Virus record (IMG/VR): IMGVR_UViG_3300025849_000010
Location: 62,001-126,000 of that record
DNA length: 64,000 bases
Source of the DNA: a virus
Reading direction: 5' to 3' (one strand)
Part shown: piece after piece, positions 4,307 to 30,305 of the stretch
Layout: each line of letters starts with the position of its first letter
How positions within the stretch are numbered: the first letter of the stretch is position 1
Translations under genes and position numbers: made by a program
The notes under the pieces: generated by a model
The model's database searches: none
Seen by the model: only the letters and a program-made list of their open reading frames with translations
Told to the model about the DNA's origin: nothing

Positions 4307-7300
4307 TTAGCTATCTCCGTTAAATGCTGCTGATGTAATATTAGTTGCACCTGATGCTGCATATGTAATCTTACTACTTGCTTTTATTTTTTCTGCTGTA
4401 ATTTCGTCTATAATCTCGATAGTATCAACAGTTGCTCCGCTTTTAAATATTTCATTGTTTTCACTGTTAACTTGGAATAAGTTACCGAACACTCCTGCTG
4501 CATCCAATGGTACAATAACAACACTTACAATGTCAGGTGCAAGGTTGTATGTAATGTATGCACTTAGTTCGCTCCAATAAAATATATCGCCAAAGTCCCA
4601 GTTCTGTAAGTCAAAAAACTCATCGATAGCAACAACAATTCTAGTTTTAATATCGTTGTCGCTTACTACTGATTCTTCATTTTTAACAACCTTAATACTT
4701 GCTTGTAATGCTGATTCTGCTTTGCTGCCAAATAGCACTTTGTAATTTACCGGATGATAAACTATTTCGTCACTTATAGATTTAATGTTGTTCAACTGTT
4801 TTCCGTAATCAAACTGCATTTGATTAGAACTTGGTGGAAGCGGCTTAGTTTCACTTAAACCCTTTAACCAACGAGTAAATTCAACATCGTAATTTCTTGT
4901 TAATAAGTAGCAATCAATAATATTACTTGCACTCGGATCAATACGTTGGTTATAGTCTGCAACATGCACATAATGGAATTTAAGACCTTTGCGGCCAACA
5001 AATGCTCTATAATTATTAGTAATAGTCATACGTGCATTTATTGTATTAAGTGTTTTAAAAACATTAGTTTGTGTAAAGTAAAACAGTTGATTATTAGTAT
5101 AACTTGTAACCGTTTGCATTTCTAATTCGTTAGAAAGAATTATTATACCTTCAGCTGTTGGATCAATAAAACTCCACTCTTCAACTTTGTCGATATTACT
5201 GCGGCGTTTTTGTATAACAAATTTGTTTAACGGATTTGTTGCAGGTTTAACTAATTGTACAAATACGTCTGGATCGTCAACTACCCCATCGTCGTCGCTG
5301 TCAAAGAATGTTACTTCGATCTTTTTAGTATCAACATATCCTGTAGGTTCTTTGTATTCTGCAACTATTTCCAAGTCATGATTAATAGTAAACGGCATTG
5401 TTGCTTCTGGCAATGTATTAATGTTTAGCACACTAATTTTGTCTTTAATAACTTTACCTGTTTTACTATCGTAAACTTTATCACTACTATCAAAGAAGAA
5501 TCTAGTTTCTTCTTCGCTTTCGAATATATAACGGAGATTTCTATAGGTAACAGTGTACTTTGTTCCACTTGTTTCAAATAGTATTAACCAACTTGAATCA
5601 AGATTTTGATTGGACGAATCTCCTGCTTTACCTAAACTAAATGGATCTGCCGAATTTAAATTGTCACTTGTTATGATTTTCCAAGTAGCAGTTGTTACGT
5701 CATATCTTAAACCAAAAGTTCTATAAGCAAAAATAAGATCAATTGCTTTATTAGCAACATCAGTTATTAGGCCTTGAGATAACTTTGTAATAATCTTTTG
5801 AAGTATCGCACCAGTTGGAATCGTATCGTTAACTTGTATAGCACCCTGGCTGTTAATAATCCCAGTGCCGTTTGATGTACCATCGCCTTGTACATTAATA
5901 ATTTTTGTCCACTTGTATGTTGTTGCTCCAAACACATTTGCTGGATCACCTTGTACAAGGTCGTAATTATTATTACTATCAAAGTAGTAACCTTCAGGTG
6001 AAACAAATTTACACATTGCGCCTGGTTGGATAAATTTAAAGTTACCGCCGGTATATGCCGGACCTACCTTATACAAACTATTATCGTTAGTATTAATAAA
6101 GTATCCGGTTGACATATTTGTTTCATTAGTAACTTGTACAAACTCTGTGTTGTACGAGATCATGTCTGTTTGTGGAAAGTTTTTGTAAAAGTAGTTTCTC
6201 AATTTTTTACTTCTAATAATAGGAGTAATAGTATTGTAGATTATATCTTCAACTTCGGTTTTGTTAGTAAAGCTAAATTCTGTTTTTTCTAAAAACTCAT
6301 CTCTATAAATGATGCCATCGTTGCCGTAAATGTTAGTATTAGAATATTTTCCCGTTGCATCTTTAAGATCAAAGTATCTACTAAATCCACTTGAAACACG
6401 GTTAACTGATTTCACTTTAACAATATCTTGACTTACAGCTAGAGGAGCAATATTATAGTCTTCCCCAGTGATCATTCTGTTCTGTGTATAATAAAGTGCA
6501 GGAGCATTTACTTTGATATCTGCATTTGATTCAGACGTAGCTGCATTAGACACTGTAGTTGTAAGCTGTAGATTTAAACTTAATGTTTCAATCTTTCCTG
6601 AAGAACTAACATACGGAATGCTAATAGAAACATTTCTAATATTCTTTGGTGTAATACTGTATGCAGAGTTTTGCGAAACTCTGTAATACGCACGGAAGTT
6701 ACCTTTTGGTAAATTTCCAAATACGCCATCACTAAACACAAGATTTACTCTGTCTCCCAAACGTGTTTGCGGAAAGTAAATGTTTCTTAGGTTTTTGCTT
6801 AGTGAATTGTAAACAACATTGTTACCTTCAACTGCGTCAACTTTTGACCATAAGTTTTGCTCACTGCCATTTGAATCTAATTGATACAGCCACAAGTCAT
6901 CATGGTTGATATTTTCTACATCAAGAGCAACAACTTGGTTATTGCTAGGATTCTCTACTGCAAAGTCTGCATTTTGTAAAGAGCCTTGACGGAAGTGAAC
7001 AAAGTATCCAGTGTTTGCACTGCCTGGTCCTGAGCCGTCATCTCTATAAAGTACACTCATGTTGTTGCCTGGTAACGGATTTTCTTCTACAATCGAACCT
7101 TCTTCTAGTTTACAACTTGTAACTTCAAAGTTTAAATTTCTACCATCAACATTTTTATTAAAAGTAAAGATAGGAACTTTTCTATTGTTTGCATTTACTT
7201 TGTAAGTGCTAGTTTTAACATTACCCACTGTGCCTTGTTGAATAGGTGTACCGATTGGATTACGCTTTGTAAATCCAGCATTTAAGACTTTAGTAAACTG

Positions 7301-7762
7301 TTCGTTCCAGTCTGGATTAGAACTGTCGTTCCATTCAATAGTAACATTACTTAAATTAGTACCGTTGTTATCAAAGATGTTTTCTGTTGTTTGCACTGTT
7401 GACAACCTCAACAGACCATTTGATGCTTTATTTCTTTTAGGATTGTAAGAAAGCATTCTAGCAATTCGGAGAACTGATTCTCTACGATCTGCTAGTTCTA
7501 AAAAGTTATCTCTTGCGTTAAGGTCGATGCGGAAAGAAAGGTTTTGGCCCAAGAAAGCAATAAGGTCAATTAGTGCAAGATACTCACTCGATTCGATATA
7601 GTCATTAAAATCTTCCGCATAATTTTTACGGAGATAATTAATCATTGAACGTCTTAGATTGTCAAAGTCGTAACTTTTAAAATCTGCATTTTGGTAGCTT
7701 TGATAGATACGTTTCCAATCTTCTGCTACTAGTAATCTGTTTTGTCTGTTGGTTGTTGACAT
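4307..7762 (-). CDS. 6: Baseplate wedge subunit gp6
   Basis: This 1151-residue protein matches the size and setting of marine T4-like gp6, the protein that forms the inner dodecameric ring of the baseplate wedge. The N-terminal region (residues about 10-110) carries the conserved opening seen in this family, with a stretch around YLALIDLIAFLGQNLSFRID. The C-terminal third has the pattern of the baseplate J-like region. It follows gp25 in the same leftward operon, as in T4-like phages generally. A late-promoter-like octamer lies just upstream. At 1151 residues it is much longer than T4 gp6 (about 660). Confidence 0.85.
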   Translation of the reverse strand: MSTTNRQNRLLVAEDWKRIYQSYQNADFKSYDFDNLRRSMINYLRKNYAEDFNDYIESSEYLALIDLIAFLGQNLSFRIDLNARDNFLELADRRESVLRIARMLSYNPKRNKASNGLLRLSTVQTTENIFDNNGTNLSNVTIEWNDSSNPDWNEQFTKVLNAGFTKRNPIGTPIQQGTVGNVKTSTYKVNANNRKVPIFTFNKNVDGRNLNFEVTSCKLEEGSIVEENPLPGNNMSVLYRDDGSGPGSANTGYFVHFRQGSLQNADFAVENPSNNQVVALDVENINHDDLWLYQLDSNGSEQNLWSKVDAVEGNNVVYNSLSKNLRNIYFPQTRLGDRVNLVFSDGVFGNLPKGNFRAYYRVSQNSAYSITPKNIRNVSISIPYVSSSGKIETLSLNLQLTTTVSNAATSESNADIKVNAPALYYTQNRMITGEDYNIAPLAVSQDIVKVKSVNRVSSGFSRYFDLKDATGKYSNTNIYGNDGIIYRDEFLEKTEFSFTNKTEVEDIIYNTITPIIRSKKLRNYFYKNFPQTDMISYNTEFVQVTNETNMSTGYFINTNDNSLYKVGPAYTGGNFKFIQPGAMCKFVSPEGYYFDSNNNYDLVQGDPANVFGATTYKWTKIINVQGDGTSNGTGIINSQGAIQVNDTIPTGAILQKIITKLSQGLITDVANKAIDLIFAYRTFGLRYDVTTATWKIITSDNLNSADPFSLGKAGDSSNQNLDSSWLILFETSGTKYTVTYRNLRYIFESEEETRFFFDSSDKVYDSKTGKVIKDKISVLNINTLPEATMPFTINHDLEIVAEYKEPTGYVDTKKIEVTFFDSDDDGVVDDPDVFVQLVKPATNPLNKFVIQKRRSNIDKVEEWSFIDPTAEGIIILSNELEMQTVTSYTNNQLFYFTQTNVFKTLNTINARMTITNNYRAFVGRKGLKFHYVHVADYNQRIDPSASNIIDCYLLTRNYDVEFTRWLKGLSETKPLPPSSNQMQFDYGKQLNNIKSISDEIVYHPVNYKVLFGSKAESALQASIKVVKNEESVVSDNDIKTRIVVAIDEFFDLQNWDFGDIFYWSELSAYITYNLAPDIVSVVIVPLDAAGVFGNLFQVNSENNEIFKSGATVDTIEIIDEITAEKIKASSKITYAASGATNITSAAFNGDS

Positions 7763-14911: not shown

Positions 14912-15922
14912 TTGTTTAAGAAAGCAGCAGTTTTTACAGATATCCACTTTGGATTAAAAGGCAACAGTCGAACACACAATGACGACTGTGAAGAATTTGT
15001 AGATTGGTATATTGAACAGGCAAAAGCTAACGGTTGCGAAACTGGTATCTTCTGCGGAGACTGGCATCACAATCGCAATAGCTTAAATCTTACAACTATG
15101 GACGCTACTATTAGGTCTTTAGAAAAACTAGGTAAAGCATTTGACAAGTTCTATATGTTTGTTGGCAACCATGACTTGTACTACAAAGACAAGCGTGACG
15201 TAACATCAACCATGTTCGGACGTCATATTCCAGGGATTACTATCGTAGACGAGATGTATGAAGAGGACGATGTTGCACTTGTTCCGTGGCTAGTAGGCGA
15301 TGAGTGGAAGAAAATTCAAAAGTGCAAAGCAAAATATATGTTTGGACACTTTGAACTTCCTAACTTTTATATGAACGCACTTGTAAAGATGCCTGATCAC
15401 GGTGAACTGCGTCCAGAAAACTTTGCTAATCAAAAATATGTATTCAGTGGACACTTCCATAAGCGTCAAGTACAAGGATCAATTCATTACATCGGCAATG
15501 CATTTCCACACAACTATGCAGATGCGTGGGACGATGATCGCGGTATGATGATTCTTGATCGACAAAACGATGCAGAGCCCGAATACATTAATTGGCCCAA
15601 CTGTCCTAAGTATCGTACAATTAAACTAAGCAGACTAATTGACGAACAAGATACATTTATTAAGAGCAAGATGTATCTTCGTGTTGAATTAGATCTTCCT
15701 ATCAGCTTCGAAGAAGCAAGTTTTATTAAAGAAACTTTCTTAACAGGCTATGACTGTAGAGAGATTACTTTAATTCCGCAGAAGCAGTTAGAAGAAATAT
15801 CAACTGAACTAGACATTGCACAATTTGAAAGTGTTGATCAAATTGTTGCAGGTGAGATTTCTGCACTAGACACTGAAAACTTTAATAAGAAGATGCTACT
15901 TGACATCTATAACGAGCTATAA
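14912..15922 (+). CDS. 47: Recombination nuclease subunit gp47 (Mre11-like)
   Basis: The protein shows the metallophosphoesterase motifs of the SbcD/Mre11 family: FTDIHFG at residues 8-14, GDWHHNR near 49, VGNHDLY near 84 and SGHFHKR near 178. With gp46 it resects DNA ends for phage recombination and recombination-dependent replication, and degrades host DNA. It begins at a TTG codon. A GGAG site at 14899-14902 gives correct spacing and no ATG fits the conserved N-terminus. The stop abuts the gp46 start codon, so the two subunits are coupled. Confidence 0.95.
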   Translation: MFKKAAVFTDIHFGLKGNSRTHNDDCEEFVDWYIEQAKANGCETGIFCGDWHHNRNSLNLTTMDATIRSLEKLGKAFDKFYMFVGNHDLYYKDKRDVTSTMFGRHIPGITIVDEMYEEDDVALVPWLVGDEWKKIQKCKAKYMFGHFELPNFYMNALVKMPDHGELRPENFANQKYVFSGHFHKRQVQGSIHYIGNAFPHNYADAWDDDRGMMILDRQNDAEPEYINWPNCPKYRTIKLSRLIDEQDTFIKSKMYLRVELDLPISFEEASFIKETFLTGYDCREITLIPQKQLEEISTELDIAQFESVDQIVAGEISALDTENFNKKMLLDIYNEL

Positions 15923-17695
15923 ATGATTAAAATTAAAGACTTAACCGTAAAGAATTTTATGAGCGTGGGCAATCAAACCCAAGCAGTTGCTTTTAACAAA
16001 GAGCAACTTACGCTTGTACTAGGCGAGAATTTGGACCAAGGTGGTGACGATACAGGATCACGTAATGGTACAGGTAAAACTACTATCATTAATGCTCTGT
16101 CATATGCGCTGTACGGACAGGCACTTACAAACATTAAACGCAACAATTTAATTAACAAAACTAACTCAAAAGGCATGCTAGTTACACTGCACTTTGAAAA
16201 GAACGGTGTTGATTATCGTATTGAACGCGGACGTTCTCCTAACGTACTCAAGTTCTTCATCAACGGCGAAGAGCAAGCAATGATCGACGAGTCACAGGGC
16301 GACAGTCGCAAGACACAAGAAACAATTAACGAGTTGTTGGACATGTCGCACGATATGTTTAAACATATTGTTGCACTTAACACATACACTGAACCGTTCC
16401 TTAGTATGCGTACTAATGATCAAAGAGCTATTATCGAGCAGTTGCTTGGTATTACTATCCTTTCTGAAAAGGCAACTAATCTTAAAGATCAAATCCGTGT
16501 AACTAAAGATGCCATCACGAGCGAAACTCTTAAAATTGATGCGATACAAACTGCTAATAGTAAAATTGAATCAACTATTAATAGTTTAGGTCGTACACAA
16601 CGTGCTTGGCTGTCTAAAAAAGAACAAGACTGTGCAAAATTGTTGCAAGGTATTACAGAATTAGAGAAACTTGATATCGAAGTTGAACTTGAATCGCATG
16701 AAAAGTTGTCTAACTGGACGCAACATAACAACGCTATTATGGCTCTTAAAAAAGAATTAAGCACATTAGAGCCAGCACTATTACGTGCCGACAAGTCTGT
16801 TGAAAAAGCCAAAAAAGACATCGCAGATCTTGAAGATGCAACATGTTATACATGCGGACAAGAACTTCACGCAGATAAAAAAGCAGAGATTGCAGCTCGC
16901 AAAGACAAAGAACTTGTCGACGCTAAATCATATGCTGAAGAAATTACAGGAAAAGTAAAAGAAGTTGCGTTTGCACTTGAAGAGATTGGTGACATCAATG
17001 GCAAGCCTACAACGTTCTATGAAAGTGCCAAAGAAGCATATGACCATAGACAAAATGTTGACAGTTTGAAGCAAGCACTGTCAAACAAACAACAAGAAAC
17101 TGATCCGTATCAAACACAAATTGACGAGCTAAACAATAGTGCAATGCAAGCAATTGATTGGTCAGCTGTTAATGAACTGACAGAGTTTAAAGAGCATCAA
17201 GAATTTTTACTTAAACTTCTAACTAACAAAGATAGTTTTATTCGTAAAAAGATTATTGATCAAAACTTAGCATATCTTAACAACAGACTTACATATTATC
17301 TTGACAAGCTAGGACTGCCGCATCAAGTTCAATTCTTAAATGATTTGAACGTAGAAATTACACAGCTAGGACAGGACTTAGACTTTGATAACCTGTCAAG
17401 AGGTGAGCGCAACAGACTTATCTTAGGCCTGAGCTTTGCATTCCGTGACGTTTGGGAATCATTGTATCAAGGTGTTAACTTATTATTCATTGATGAACTT
17501 ATCGACTCGGGCATGGACACAGCCGGTGTTGAAAGTGCGTTGAGCGTACTTAAAAAGATGGGACGTGAACGAGATAAGAATGTATTCCTTATTTCACATA
17601 AAGACGAGCTTATCGGACGAGTTAATCATGTTATGAGAGTTGTAAAAGAAAACGGATTTACAAACTATGAAAACGATATTGATATTGTTGAATAA
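15923..17695 (+). CDS. 46: Recombination nuclease subunit gp46 (Rad50-like ATPase)
   Basis: A Walker A motif GSRNGTGKT lies at residues about 45-53. Two coiled-coil arms flank a zinc hook CYTC (C308 and C311). The ABC signature LSRGERNRLILG and Walker B LLFIDELID follow near residues 490-525. This is the ATPase partner of gp47. The length of 590 residues is close to T4 gp46 (560). The ATG follows the gp47 stop with no gap. Confidence 0.95.
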   Translation: MIKIKDLTVKNFMSVGNQTQAVAFNKEQLTLVLGENLDQGGDDTGSRNGTGKTTIINALSYALYGQALTNIKRNNLINKTNSKGMLVTLHFEKNGVDYRIERGRSPNVLKFFINGEEQAMIDESQGDSRKTQETINELLDMSHDMFKHIVALNTYTEPFLSMRTNDQRAIIEQLLGITILSEKATNLKDQIRVTKDAITSETLKIDAIQTANSKIESTINSLGRTQRAWLSKKEQDCAKLLQGITELEKLDIEVELESHEKLSNWTQHNNAIMALKKELSTLEPALLRADKSVEKAKKDIADLEDATCYTCGQELHADKKAEIAARKDKELVDAKSYAEEITGKVKEVAFALEEIGDINGKPTTFYESAKEAYDHRQNVDSLKQALSNKQQETDPYQTQIDELNNSAMQAIDWSAVNELTEFKEHQEFLLKLLTNKDSFIRKKIIDQNLAYLNNRLTYYLDKLGLPHQVQFLNDLNVEITQLGQDLDFDNLSRGERNRLILGLSFAFRDVWESLYQGVNLLFIDELIDSGMDTAGVESALSVLKKMGRERDKNVFLISHKDELIGRVNHVMRVVKENGFTNYENDIDIVE

Positions 17696-17938: not shown

Positions 17939-18373
17939 ATGCATTGGACTTATGAAGGAAAACAAATTGAAGAACTGCCAGAAGGCTGCGAAGCATTTGT
18001 TTATCTTATCACAAACAAGACTAATGGCATGATGTACGTAGGCAAAAAACTAGCAAAGTTTAAGGTAACTAAACCACCGCTCAAAGGCAAAAAGAATAAG
18101 AGACGTTCAACAAAAGAAAGTGATTGGAGAGATTACTGGGGTTCCAGTGATAGACTTAACGCAGACGTTGAACGGTTAGGCGCAGAAAATTTCACAAGAG
18201 AAATATTACATATTTGTCCGAGCAGAGGCATAGCAAGTTATTTAGAGGCCCGCGAACAGTTTGAACGCAGAGTACTTGAAACAGATCAATACTACAACGG
18301 TATTATCAATGTACGAGTCGGCGGTTCAACTATTCTCAAAGAACATCTCAAAAACAATCCACCACAGGCATAA
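17939..18373 (+). CDS. GIY-YIG endonuclease, SegE-like
   Basis: The domain starts FVYLITNKTNGMMYVGKK, where the family's two halves are (Y/F)VYxI and YVGK. A WRDYWGSS element and a conserved downstream Glu region (YLEAREQFERRVLE) follow, as in the SegE-type phage GIY-YIG group. Such enzymes cut DNA and are often mobile homing nucleases. I chose the ATG at 17939 because the open frame further upstream overlaps the previous gene by 68 nt and does not belong to the domain. The product is then 144 residues. It lies directly before a structured non-coding stretch, which may be relevant for mobility. Confidence 0.75.
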   Translation: MHWTYEGKQIEELPEGCEAFVYLITNKTNGMMYVGKKLAKFKVTKPPLKGKKNKRRSTKESDWRDYWGSSDRLNADVERLGAENFTREILHICPSRGIASYLEAREQFERRVLETDQYYNGIINVRVGGSTILKEHLKNNPPQA

Positions 18374-18379
18374 TCAATA

Positions 18380-18740
18380 CAGCACATAAGGTTAGCGGGC
18401 CAGTTTGTAATACCGCTGTGGAAAAGGTCCCCTGAGAAGGACACACGTAACATATTGATCGACTACCCAGAGGTAGGAAGCCATCAAACAAATTGGGCTC
18501 ACTGGTTGATATAGATTGATTGCTGTCAGTCGAAAAACTGCAAATTACACATAAAAACTCTTTAGCAATAGGAACGAAGCGAGAGGTAGTTGGAAACAAC
18601 GATGTCGACGTAGGTTGGGAAAGGTCAGAGCCCATTGTGTAGCAGTATAACAAACACCTACTTCCAATGTCTAGGCTGGATAAGACTCACATGAAGCTTT
18701 TCTTTTAGACGACGGGGCCGTAACAGGTTCCGTCTGACTG
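18380..18740 (+). ncRNA. Candidate structured non-coding RNA
   Basis: No convincing protein frame covers this stretch, and it is visibly richer in G and C than its surroundings. It can form many local stems on the plus strand: 18394-18398/18413-18417, 18427-18430/18439-18442, 18463-18467/18472-18476, 18527-18530/18537-18540, and a GNRA hairpin GTTG-GAAA-CAAC at 18589-18600. A three-way junction is possible, with stem 18610-18615/18656-18661 enclosing 18616-18619/18631-18634 and 18635-18638/18650-18653. A perfect 9-bp hairpin (loop GTAACA) sits at 18711-18734. I could not match it to tmRNA, RNase P RNA, SRP RNA or a group I intron core by eye. Boundaries are approximate. Confidence 0.55.
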
Positions 18741-18763
18741 AAACGATCTACATGAAACTTAAA

Positions 18764-18785
18764 CATTATTACATTCGTAATAATG
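18764..18785. repeat. Perfect 9-bp inverted repeat
   Basis: CATTATTAC and GTAATAATG flank a 4-nt loop (ATTC), directly after the candidate RNA. It is AT-rich and has no T-run, so it is more likely an operator or RNA stem than a classical terminator. Confidence 0.5.
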
Positions 18786-18839
18786 CAATTATATCATATA
18801 TTAAATCATTTAAATTAAACGAAGTGATGTAGTTTGAGC

Positions 18840-18873
18840 GTTAGCGATAACTAAAATGAGCTTTAGCTCATTT
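18840..18873 (+). other. Two adjacent hairpins before the late promoter
   Basis: GTTA-GCGA-TAAC (18840-18851) forms a GNRA hairpin. AAATGAGC-TTTA-GCTCATTT (18854-18873) forms an 8-bp hairpin. There is no long T-run after the second, so termination is possible but weak. They may end the upstream RNA or belong to it. The flanking 18786-18839 stretch shows nothing else. Confidence 0.45.
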
Positions 18874-18915: not shown

Positions 18916-19950
18916 ATGAAAGTATTTGACATTGTAAACGAAACAAGATATCGAGTTAGTGAATTCCCTGGATTTGTTTGGGATGACGCAGCTGAGATGT
19001 TAACTCGTCCTGATGGCACAACAGTAAAAGCTACTAGTGCTGATGATGCAAGAAGAGCCGCAAGAACCTGGAATGCCAGAACAGCTAGACTACAATCGCC
19101 AAATGCTAAGTGGAGAAATTTTAAGCGAAGTGCTAATAATCCAGCTCTCAAGTTGGAAAACATGGATAATGCTTTTGCAAAATGGTCAACACGTTTACAA
19201 CGTATACCTGGCATTGGTAAAATTAAATGGATATTCTTATTAAATGATCTGTTTGCTGATATGGCCGGGATTGCTACAGCCGTCATTGAAGAAGAAAATG
19301 AACGTGCAGAAGCAGCAGGCGAAGAATTTGACACAGTAGAAGTTACTAGTTTAATTTCAGCAGCTATATGGACACACCTTAAAGAAGTATTTCCTGCGAT
19401 AGCAAGATCAGCAGCAGTGTTTATTACAACTATATGGGCAAGTACAAAAATATTGACAAGAGTTATTAACTCAATTATGTGGGTAGTTAGAGGATTTGGT
19501 CTTGCAACTGGACCTGGCGCTCCGATAGTTTGGTTAGGAACTTTTGCTGCACAGATTGGCCTAAGTTGGTTTATGACAACTGATTACGGCAAACAAAAAA
19601 TGCGTGACGCATGGATTTGGACACTTGAAGCATTGCTTCCAGGAGTAATAGGTTTAGCAGCGTCTATAGCAGTTAAAGCAGGGTTCGAATCTGCTGAAGG
19701 ACTGTCAGATGCGGCTCGTGCAGCTAGCGAAACTGTAGCAGATACACTAAAAACTCAAATGGAATCACAAGCTGAAACTATACTAAACGGTATGGATGAA
19801 TTTGGTGGCGGAGTAAGTGAAGACGATGTTCAAGACATGCCGCAGGAAATTCAAGATAGACTTAATCAACAAGAACAACCAGATGCTGCACCAACTCCAG
19901 CAGCAGCAAATCAAAGTTTTAAAGACATTGTAGGCGCTGGTACTTGGTAA
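18916..19950 (+). CDS. Hypothetical virion-associated protein with hydrophobic centre
   Basis: This 344-residue protein has a charged N-terminal third, a hydrophobic central part (residues about 155-245, several helices with Trp such as FITTIWASTKILT and GAPIVWLGTFAAQIG) and an acidic, Gln/Pro/Ala-rich tail. The pattern suggests a membrane-interacting or ejected virion protein, but no family is recognised. It is expressed from its own late promoter and ends one base before the oppositely transcribed gp26 frameshift extension. Confidence 0.55.
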   Translation: MKVFDIVNETRYRVSEFPGFVWDDAAEMLTRPDGTTVKATSADDARRAARTWNARTARLQSPNAKWRNFKRSANNPALKLENMDNAFAKWSTRLQRIPGIGKIKWIFLLNDLFADMAGIATAVIEEENERAEAAGEEFDTVEVTSLISAAIWTHLKEVFPAIARSAAVFITTIWASTKILTRVINSIMWVVRGFGLATGPGAPIVWLGTFAAQIGLSWFMTTDYGKQKMRDAWIWTLEALLPGVIGLAASIAVKAGFESAEGLSDAARAASETVADTLKTQMESQAETILNGMDEFGGGVSEDDVQDMPQEIQDRLNQQEQPDAAPTPAAANQSFKDIVGAGTW

Positions 19951-29804: not shown

Positions 29805-29888
29805 CTTTTGTTATAGAGATATCCTCTATTGCGAGGAATTATGCGGAAACCCGCCGCGTAGACCTAGAACGTCAAAAAGGAGAAAACA

Positions 29889-30305
29889 ATGGGACGTCCA
29901 CTTAATAAAAGATACTTCGGAGAACCAACTGCCGGAGGAAACGAAATCAAAGTACAATTTCACAATGGAACAGCTAGTGTAAACGGCTGGATCGTTAAAC
30001 AAAAAGGTTCAAAAAAATTCTTATGCTCAGACGGAACTGTCGAAGCAACATGTGTACTAGTTGACAAAGCATCAGGCGCAGTAGCAGCTGGTGAAATGAC
30101 TATTACAGTACTTGACGGTGCAACACCACGTCAGGTAACAAAGATTGCTGCACACAAAGTAACAATGGATAACGGTTTAACTATTAACTGGGACTTCACT
30201 GGAACTGGTGCAACTGTTGAAATGGAAGAAGCAGGCGATGATGCTGTTATCGACAATGTAGGCGTTGATGAAGACGACTTCGAAGGCGATGACCCAGCAC
30301 CATAA
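29889..30305 (+). CDS. Virion structural protein, MGRPLNKRYFG family
   Basis: The 138-residue product begins MGRPLNKRYFGEP, a start seen in proteins of marine T4-like phages encoded near the fibre genes. The body is beta-rich with Gly/Thr, and the last 30 residues are strongly acidic. I infer a structural role from position ahead of fibre genes and from the late promoter. No enzyme motif is visible. AAGGAG lies upstream. Confidence 0.6.
   Translation: MGRPLNKRYFGEPTAGGNEIKVQFHNGTASVNGWIVKQKGSKKFLCSDGTVEATCVLVDKASGAVAAGEMTITVLDGATPRQVTKIAAHKVTMDNGLTINWDFTGTGATVEMEEAGDDAVIDNVGVDEDDFEGDDPAP

Follow-up and report, generated by a model that had tools for sequence, protein, structure and literature searches.

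What is the stretch of about 360 bases that lies, without a protein frame, between the recombination genes and the structural genes of this phage? The window, that is the whole stretch of DNA analysed here (64,000 nucleotides), comprises bases 62,001-126,000 of a 159,618-base uncultured virus record, and an earlier reading made from the letters alone (the sequence-only reading) had proposed that positions 18380-18740 hold a large structured RNA, possibly a mobile ribozyme or an intron relic. The genes around this site are the following:

14912-15922: SbcD-like gp47 gene, 5' of the RNA
15923-17695: SbcC-like gp46 gene, 5' of the RNA
between gp46 and the SegE-type gene: open reading frame of 67 amino acids
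17939-18373, + strand: SegE-type GIY-YIG endonuclease gene, directly 5' of the RNA, a usual and non-obligatory neighbour
18916-19950, + strand: gene for a hypothetical protein, 3' neighbour of the RNA, in a slot that differs among relatives

Structural genes, including the portal gene, lie further 3' of the hypothetical protein gene. By gp46 and portal, the closest annotated relatives are the jumbo myophages PA5oct, Phosso, Atu_ph07 and CBB, with about 49-54% protein identity, and the SegE family call rests on the orthologous protein of one relative (L070). Elsewhere in the window, at 29821-29891, we observed a freshwater-2 RNA motif (RF02980, 52.1 bits) directly 5' of an open reading frame that starts at about 29890. 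In five related loci (L011, L019, for example at 5770-7480, L032, L062 and L073) hemE-like and hemC-like translations, recognised by motifs, lie between gp46 and segE; these would be uroporphyrinogen decarboxylase and hydroxymethylbilane synthase, two haem-synthesis genes carried by phages.

Taken by itself, the sequence of the window folds no better than its shuffles (z of -0.55 on the + strand and +0.49 on the - strand), so the stems listed by the sequence-only reading, which are indeed present, could not be told from chance without relatives, and it was the relatives that had to decide. A protein search with gp46 gave 80 loci, 59 of which hold a homolog of the RNA at the same place; the remaining 21 contigs end before the site, and thus every gp46 locus that reaches the site has the RNA. 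A 17-base motif from the 5' end led to at least 120 further stretches of viral contigs, nearly all with the RNA, and a 3' motif together with four further motif scans led to more loci, such that a profile of the 3' core matches at least 281 loci and profile or covariance searches place the RNA in more than 250 uncultured phage contigs. By blastn, homologs of full length share 66-93% identity, with numerous indels. The RNA is present as one strong copy per record in 10 of 10 long phage records (99-201 kb, each with E < 1e-28), and as one copy in the record of the window itself; weaker extra covariance matches in the 10 long records were due to palindromes or chance, those on the reverse strand being palindrome artefacts of the same loci.

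It was not found by blastn with three members as queries against 50,697 phage records, and the covariance model had no convincing match in Phosso, Atu_ph07 and PA5oct, the cultured jumbo phages that come closest. The motif has 12 matches in 84,980 bacterial and archaeal genomes, all of them bare 17-mers without the RNA. Near gp46 of Phosso (L268:11410-12425) there is about 1 kb without annotated genes in which strong stems abound, and which scores 29 bits with the Rfam model EGFOA against a cut-off of 37.7 (E 0.0046); this is possibly another large phage RNA, unrelated to the present one by profile search. The RNA seems common to a large group of uncultured aquatic phages, both marine and freshwater; it is conserved as deeply as a core gene, at every sequenced instance of its site, in a phage group that is abundant. 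We found no prior description in the open-access literature searched, a scope outside which most subscription papers fall, so that an earlier description is possible.

Coding can be set aside for this region. Its GC content, said to be raised, is 0.436, compared with about 0.36-0.41 in the surroundings. The absence of a protein frame was confirmed in the homologs, in which all frames are interrupted by stops and indels, none is conserved across the region and no open reading frame keeps its place. An antisense frame of 101 amino acids (18348-18653) keeps neither position nor length in relatives. Of the deletions seen against the window, most have lengths that are not divisible by 3 (274 and 146 versus 23).

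Compensatory change across the homologs is instead what marks the region, far beyond what shuffled and slid controls give. A structure-blind covariation scan (mutual information with average-product correction, 87 sequences less than 92% identical) ranked complementary pairs at the top, including pairs invisible to a nested folding program. The resulting fold model, tested on an alignment of 65 sequences, has 80 pairs in 19 helices, which include two pseudoknots as well as a long-range helix crossing another one. In this model 91.6% of cells are paired, and 49 pairs and 594 cells are changed on both sides, compared with about 182 such cells in shuffles and 70-120 in slid controls; none of 500 shuffles reached the model and slid controls were 35-40% paired. 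These controls were shuffles and slides rather than a phylogenetic simulation, which is not expected to change the conclusion, the effect being large. The parts of the RNA are:

18379-18873, + strand: whole conserved non-coding RNA, about 490 nt, made of a core (18379-18756) and a 3' tail
18379-84/18521-26, + strand: pseudoknot helix H1, joining the RNA 5' end to the loop of hairpin 18514-18/18527-31
18395-18447, + strand: coaxial hairpins, with GCGG/CCGC at 18395-98/18413-16, then 18417-20/18444-47 and 18427-30/18439-42
18452-18512, + strand: branched 5' domain, 18452-61/18503-12 with inner hairpin 18463-67/18472-76
18538-18645, + strand: long-range helix, 18538-41/18642-45 and 18546-51/18636-41, crossing 18610-15/18656-61
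18558-66/18579-85, + strand: conserved GGAACGA hairpin
18587-18602, + strand: GAAA hairpin of variable size
18607-18661, + strand: double pseudoknot core, 18607-09/18624-26, 18610-15/18656-61 and 18616-19/18631-34
18689-18695, + strand: 7-nt repeat, copy 1, ACATGAA
18711-18734, + strand: 9-bp hairpin between the repeats
18750-18756, + strand: 7-nt repeat, copy 2, ACATGAA
18764-18785, + strand: tail hairpin a, AT-rich, CATTATTAC/GTAATAATG, position kept while the stem sequence varies
18831-18852, + strand: tail hairpin b, AGTT-TGAGCGTTAGCGAT-AACT, inner GAGCG..GCGA conserved and outer stem compensated
18854-18873, + strand: tail hairpin c, terminator-like, AAATGAGC-TTTA-GCTCATTT

Helix H1 is paired in 99.7% of cells, with changes on both sides in 5 of its 6 pairs. 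Among the coaxial hairpins the GCGG/CCGC one is invariant, and the other two vary by compensation. The 3-bp pseudoknot 18607-09/18624-26 is paired in all 65 sequences, as GAC/GTC, GTG/CAC, GCA/TGC, GTA/TAC or GCT/AGC. The perfect 9-bp hairpin noticed earlier at 18711-18734 is indeed there and is kept in relatives, with 98.8% of cells paired, and the suspected three-way junction at 18610-18661 is a paired unit, in fact a pseudoknotted one. The GNRA hairpin is present in the window as GAAA at 18589-18600, but the same spot is a variable stem in relatives. Long stretches are both unpaired and invariant (GGAACGA, GGGAAAGG..CAGAGCCC and TTCCAA.GTCT). The branched 5' domain is replaced by unrelated structures in other members, and 19 loci agree with the others throughout from the GGAACGA hairpin onwards but have an unrelated 5' domain. 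Thus the pseudoknotted 3' core is universal and the 5' domain exchangeable.

The element is real at the place first proposed for it and longer than the 360 bases then given, running from 18379 to about 18873, with both ends drawn from conservation and, at the 3' side, from the terminator-like hairpin. Hairpins similar to a, b and c occur in fixed order in 129, 153 and 171 of 196 distinct relatives, compared with 14, 1 and 12 in shuffled tails, and they are built from 46, 22 and 58 different stem words. The T run of hairpin c is short, and immediately 3' of it stands CATAAATA, which we take to resemble a T4-type late promoter. A conserved tail of three hairpins, the last of them terminator-like, argues that the RNA has its own 3' end. 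No promoter was recognised 5' of the RNA, where relatives have in common, ahead of helix 1, no more than a short AGGCA-like block. Compensatory changes, pseudoknots, an own 3' end and the missing coding signal together bear out the proposal of a large structured RNA, and that this is a conserved class of structured RNA is as good as certain to us.

Does this RNA depend on the genes beside it? In 109 independently, motif-picked loci a SegE-like gene lies 5' of the RNA in 93, and in the other 16 the RNA is kept next to, for example, a small zinc-ribbon-like protein, a 102-aa protein or a PDDEXK endonuclease. The last of these (PF24608) was seen to fill the usual SegE slot in three freshwater relatives (L104, L115 and L131). 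The same TAA ends many different upstream genes, inside the first conserved block of the RNA, CACATAAGG (18379-18389 and homologs), so that their last codons overlap the first helix. On the other side, the 3' genes come from numerous families with no relation to one another, and some are encoded on the opposite strand. The presence of the RNA is independent of which genes adjoin.

These observations bear on three rival explanations. That the RNA is a relic of a group I or group II intron, or a decayed coding gene, has next to no probability in our view: a homing-type endonuclease gene does adjoin it, but no intron family matches, no gene is interrupted (upstream frames are complete and downstream frames are unrelated between loci), the RNA is single-copy, highly conserved and compensated, the SegE gene is exchangeable and is itself intact and highly conserved, and the frames are broken by indels and stops. 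The suggestion of a mobile ribozyme or intron relic is not supported. Rfam models for group I and group II introns, HEARO, GOLLD, ROOL and IMES, which had been named as the check, matched neither the region of interest in the window nor any of 11 relatives, whether at gathering or at relaxed thresholds, and Rfam 15 as a whole gave none in the stretch at E up to 10, apart from chance snoRNA scores. No tRNA was found in the 64-kb window, and the RNA has no match to ARAGORN or to the Rfam tmRNA and tRNA models. Putative catalysis by the RNA is nonetheless possible. Could it be a 5' leader, regulating the downstream gene in cis? Downstream genes are often codirectional and start about 70-170 bases past the core, as a leader would have it; the diversity of those genes and of their strands differs from the single downstream gene kind on one strand expected of a riboswitch or leader, and the RNA ends in a terminator-like hairpin with the late-promoter-like CATAAATA after it, so we regard a leader as very unlikely. 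We consider equally improbable that the RNA is the partner of the SegE enzyme, forming an RNA-guided or RNA-regulated nuclease by analogy to TnpB and its downstream guide RNA. In 151 of 169 loci the segE gene lies directly 5' of the RNA and in the same direction, with a frame that often enters the first helix, an association that could point to a joint function instead of an independent RNA, but the nuclease is not constant as it is for omega RNAs, since the RNA persists with other upstream genes in the 16 loci above; moreover, there is a single copy per genome without any sign of mobility, and no variable 3' guide. That the RNA stands alone and acts in trans is very probable in our view.

The RNA is most surprising in the two 7-nt words that flank the 18711-18734 hairpin, 54-68 nt apart among members. 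In the covariation scan, column pairs between the two words that are identical, and not complementary, are among the strongest associations in the RNA. The words are identical in 258 of 263 aligned members, or in 260 if one counts two divergent members, L230 and L235, which the program misaligned and in which matching words were read by eye; in the other 3 of 263 they differ by one base. About 20 different words occur, ACATGAA being the common one and ACGTGAA, GCATGAA, ACAGAAA, GTATGAA, ACATAAT, AAATCAA, AACTGAA and GTCGAAA being among the others, and in the alignment used every word has A as its sixth base. When the word columns are left out of tree building, the tree shows 18-19 changes of the word, and in 11 of 11 independent comparisons both copies change alike (p about 0.001). 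L230 and L235, both highly divergent, carry an extended double word of about 10-11 nt (ATCATCAAGT and GGTTAATGTAA), which suggests that the matched segment can extend past 7 nt.

Because the changes are identical rather than complementary, the two words cannot pair with each other. No conserved complement of the word was found in cis within 600 bases, elsewhere in the loci or within several kb, and no segment of the RNA or its flanks covaries with it. Roles as start codons, complements of tRNA anticodon loops or promoter boxes were rejected, since variants (ACGTGAA, ACAGAAA, GTATGAA, AAATCAA and others) lose the bases needed. Within the window the word seemed scarce (5 further occurrences versus 15.7 expected from dinucleotide shuffles), which a Markov-5 model over many loci did not confirm. 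Copies that change in concert without pairing with each other imply a common partner in trans, and one such partner fitting both copies would be the simplest reading of the double word. It could be host RNA, phage RNA, DNA or a coevolving protein, all of which are conceivable, self-processing being the main alternative. We hypothesise that the end of the gp47-gp46-segE run would be co-transcribed with the RNA or give rise to it by processing, that the RNA would end at hairpin c and would fold into a rigid scaffold holding both words unpaired, and that a single trans partner would be bound by both words. Base pairing would be the most likely mode, because some 20 different words are tolerated provided that the two copies match. 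That both words pair with one common nucleic-acid partner is a serious possibility, to which we give somewhat less than an even chance. Since concerted words would fit one trans partner, the likeliest role would be that of a bivalent guide or decoy on an ornate scaffold like that of GOLLD or ROOL, directed at a partner RNA (or DNA) that varies from one host or phage to another. More tentatively, the RNA may be a programmable bivalent guide, with a fixed pseudoknotted scaffold and two identical words that are free except at the sixth base, acting on a host RNA or on two DNA sites to be brought together; if true, it would represent a new type of guide RNA encoded by phages.

Two further rivals concern the words themselves. 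By analogy to GOLLD and ROOL the RNA could be an RNA-only or RNA-protein cage or scaffold, the words being sites for a coevolving cargo or coat, a prospect that we hold as tentatively as the programmable guide. Base pairing is easier to picture than a protein whose specificity changes in concert at five positions or more, and the window has no tRNA gene as the usual GOLLD/ROOL setting would have; in favour of a cage are the size, the pseudoknots, the phage location and the universal 3' part joined to an exchangeable 5' part, as stated for GOLLD (PMC12286853). In a self-processing RNA, the words could also be two interchangeable sites at which a ribozyme or a sequence-specific RNase acts, such that the hairpin between them would be cut out, or the RNA would be trimmed or circularised. 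This would fit identical short words on either side of a conserved hairpin, and long invariant unpaired stretches that exceed the needs of pairing, but a guide inside the RNA would be expected to covary with the words, which no internal segment does, and Rfam holds no relative among known ribozymes. We consider self-processing unlikely, though less so than the leader and SegE readings. Overall, the explanation that we favour with good confidence is a large structured RNA that the phage encodes, that stands alone and whose class is absent from Rfam.

How does this RNA compare with known systems? GOLLD and ROOL RNAs usually lie near tRNA genes and form homo-oligomeric RNA cages. GOLLD is phage-encoded, large, ornate and pseudoknotted, with a universal 3' part and a variable 5' part, and ROOL, likewise phage-encoded, ornate and pseudoknotted, is close in size to the present RNA and has no known function (PMC12286853). 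The present RNA shares all these features of GOLLD, but has about 490 nt where GOLLD has 800 or more, no Rfam match and no tRNA gene beside it in the window, and it carries concerted 7-nt repeats; from ROOL it differs likewise in lacking an Rfam match and tRNA neighbours in the window, and in its fold. As a kind it belongs beside GOLLD and ROOL; judged by its sequence, it is a separate class. HEARO, omega RNA and the reRNA of TnpB/IscB are also structured RNAs directly 3' of, and overlapping, a nuclease gene; here, in contrast, the nuclease is of GIY-YIG type, exchangeable and sometimes absent, and the RNA is single-copy, without a variable 3' guide and without an Rfam match. The bridge or seek RNA of IS110-type elements has two short programmable elements that must share sequence. 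The present RNA also has two short elements of shared sequence, but its repeats are single-stranded and 7 nt long, no IS110 recombinase was noticed nearby and it is not a mobile element. Bacteria and phages have only a handful of known large ornate non-coding RNAs, and to our knowledge a concerted double word has not been described for GOLLD, ROOL or other large ornate phage RNAs. The double word, rewritten many times yet identical in two places, is a clue that other large ornate RNAs lack, and it makes the partner of a large phage RNA directly testable.
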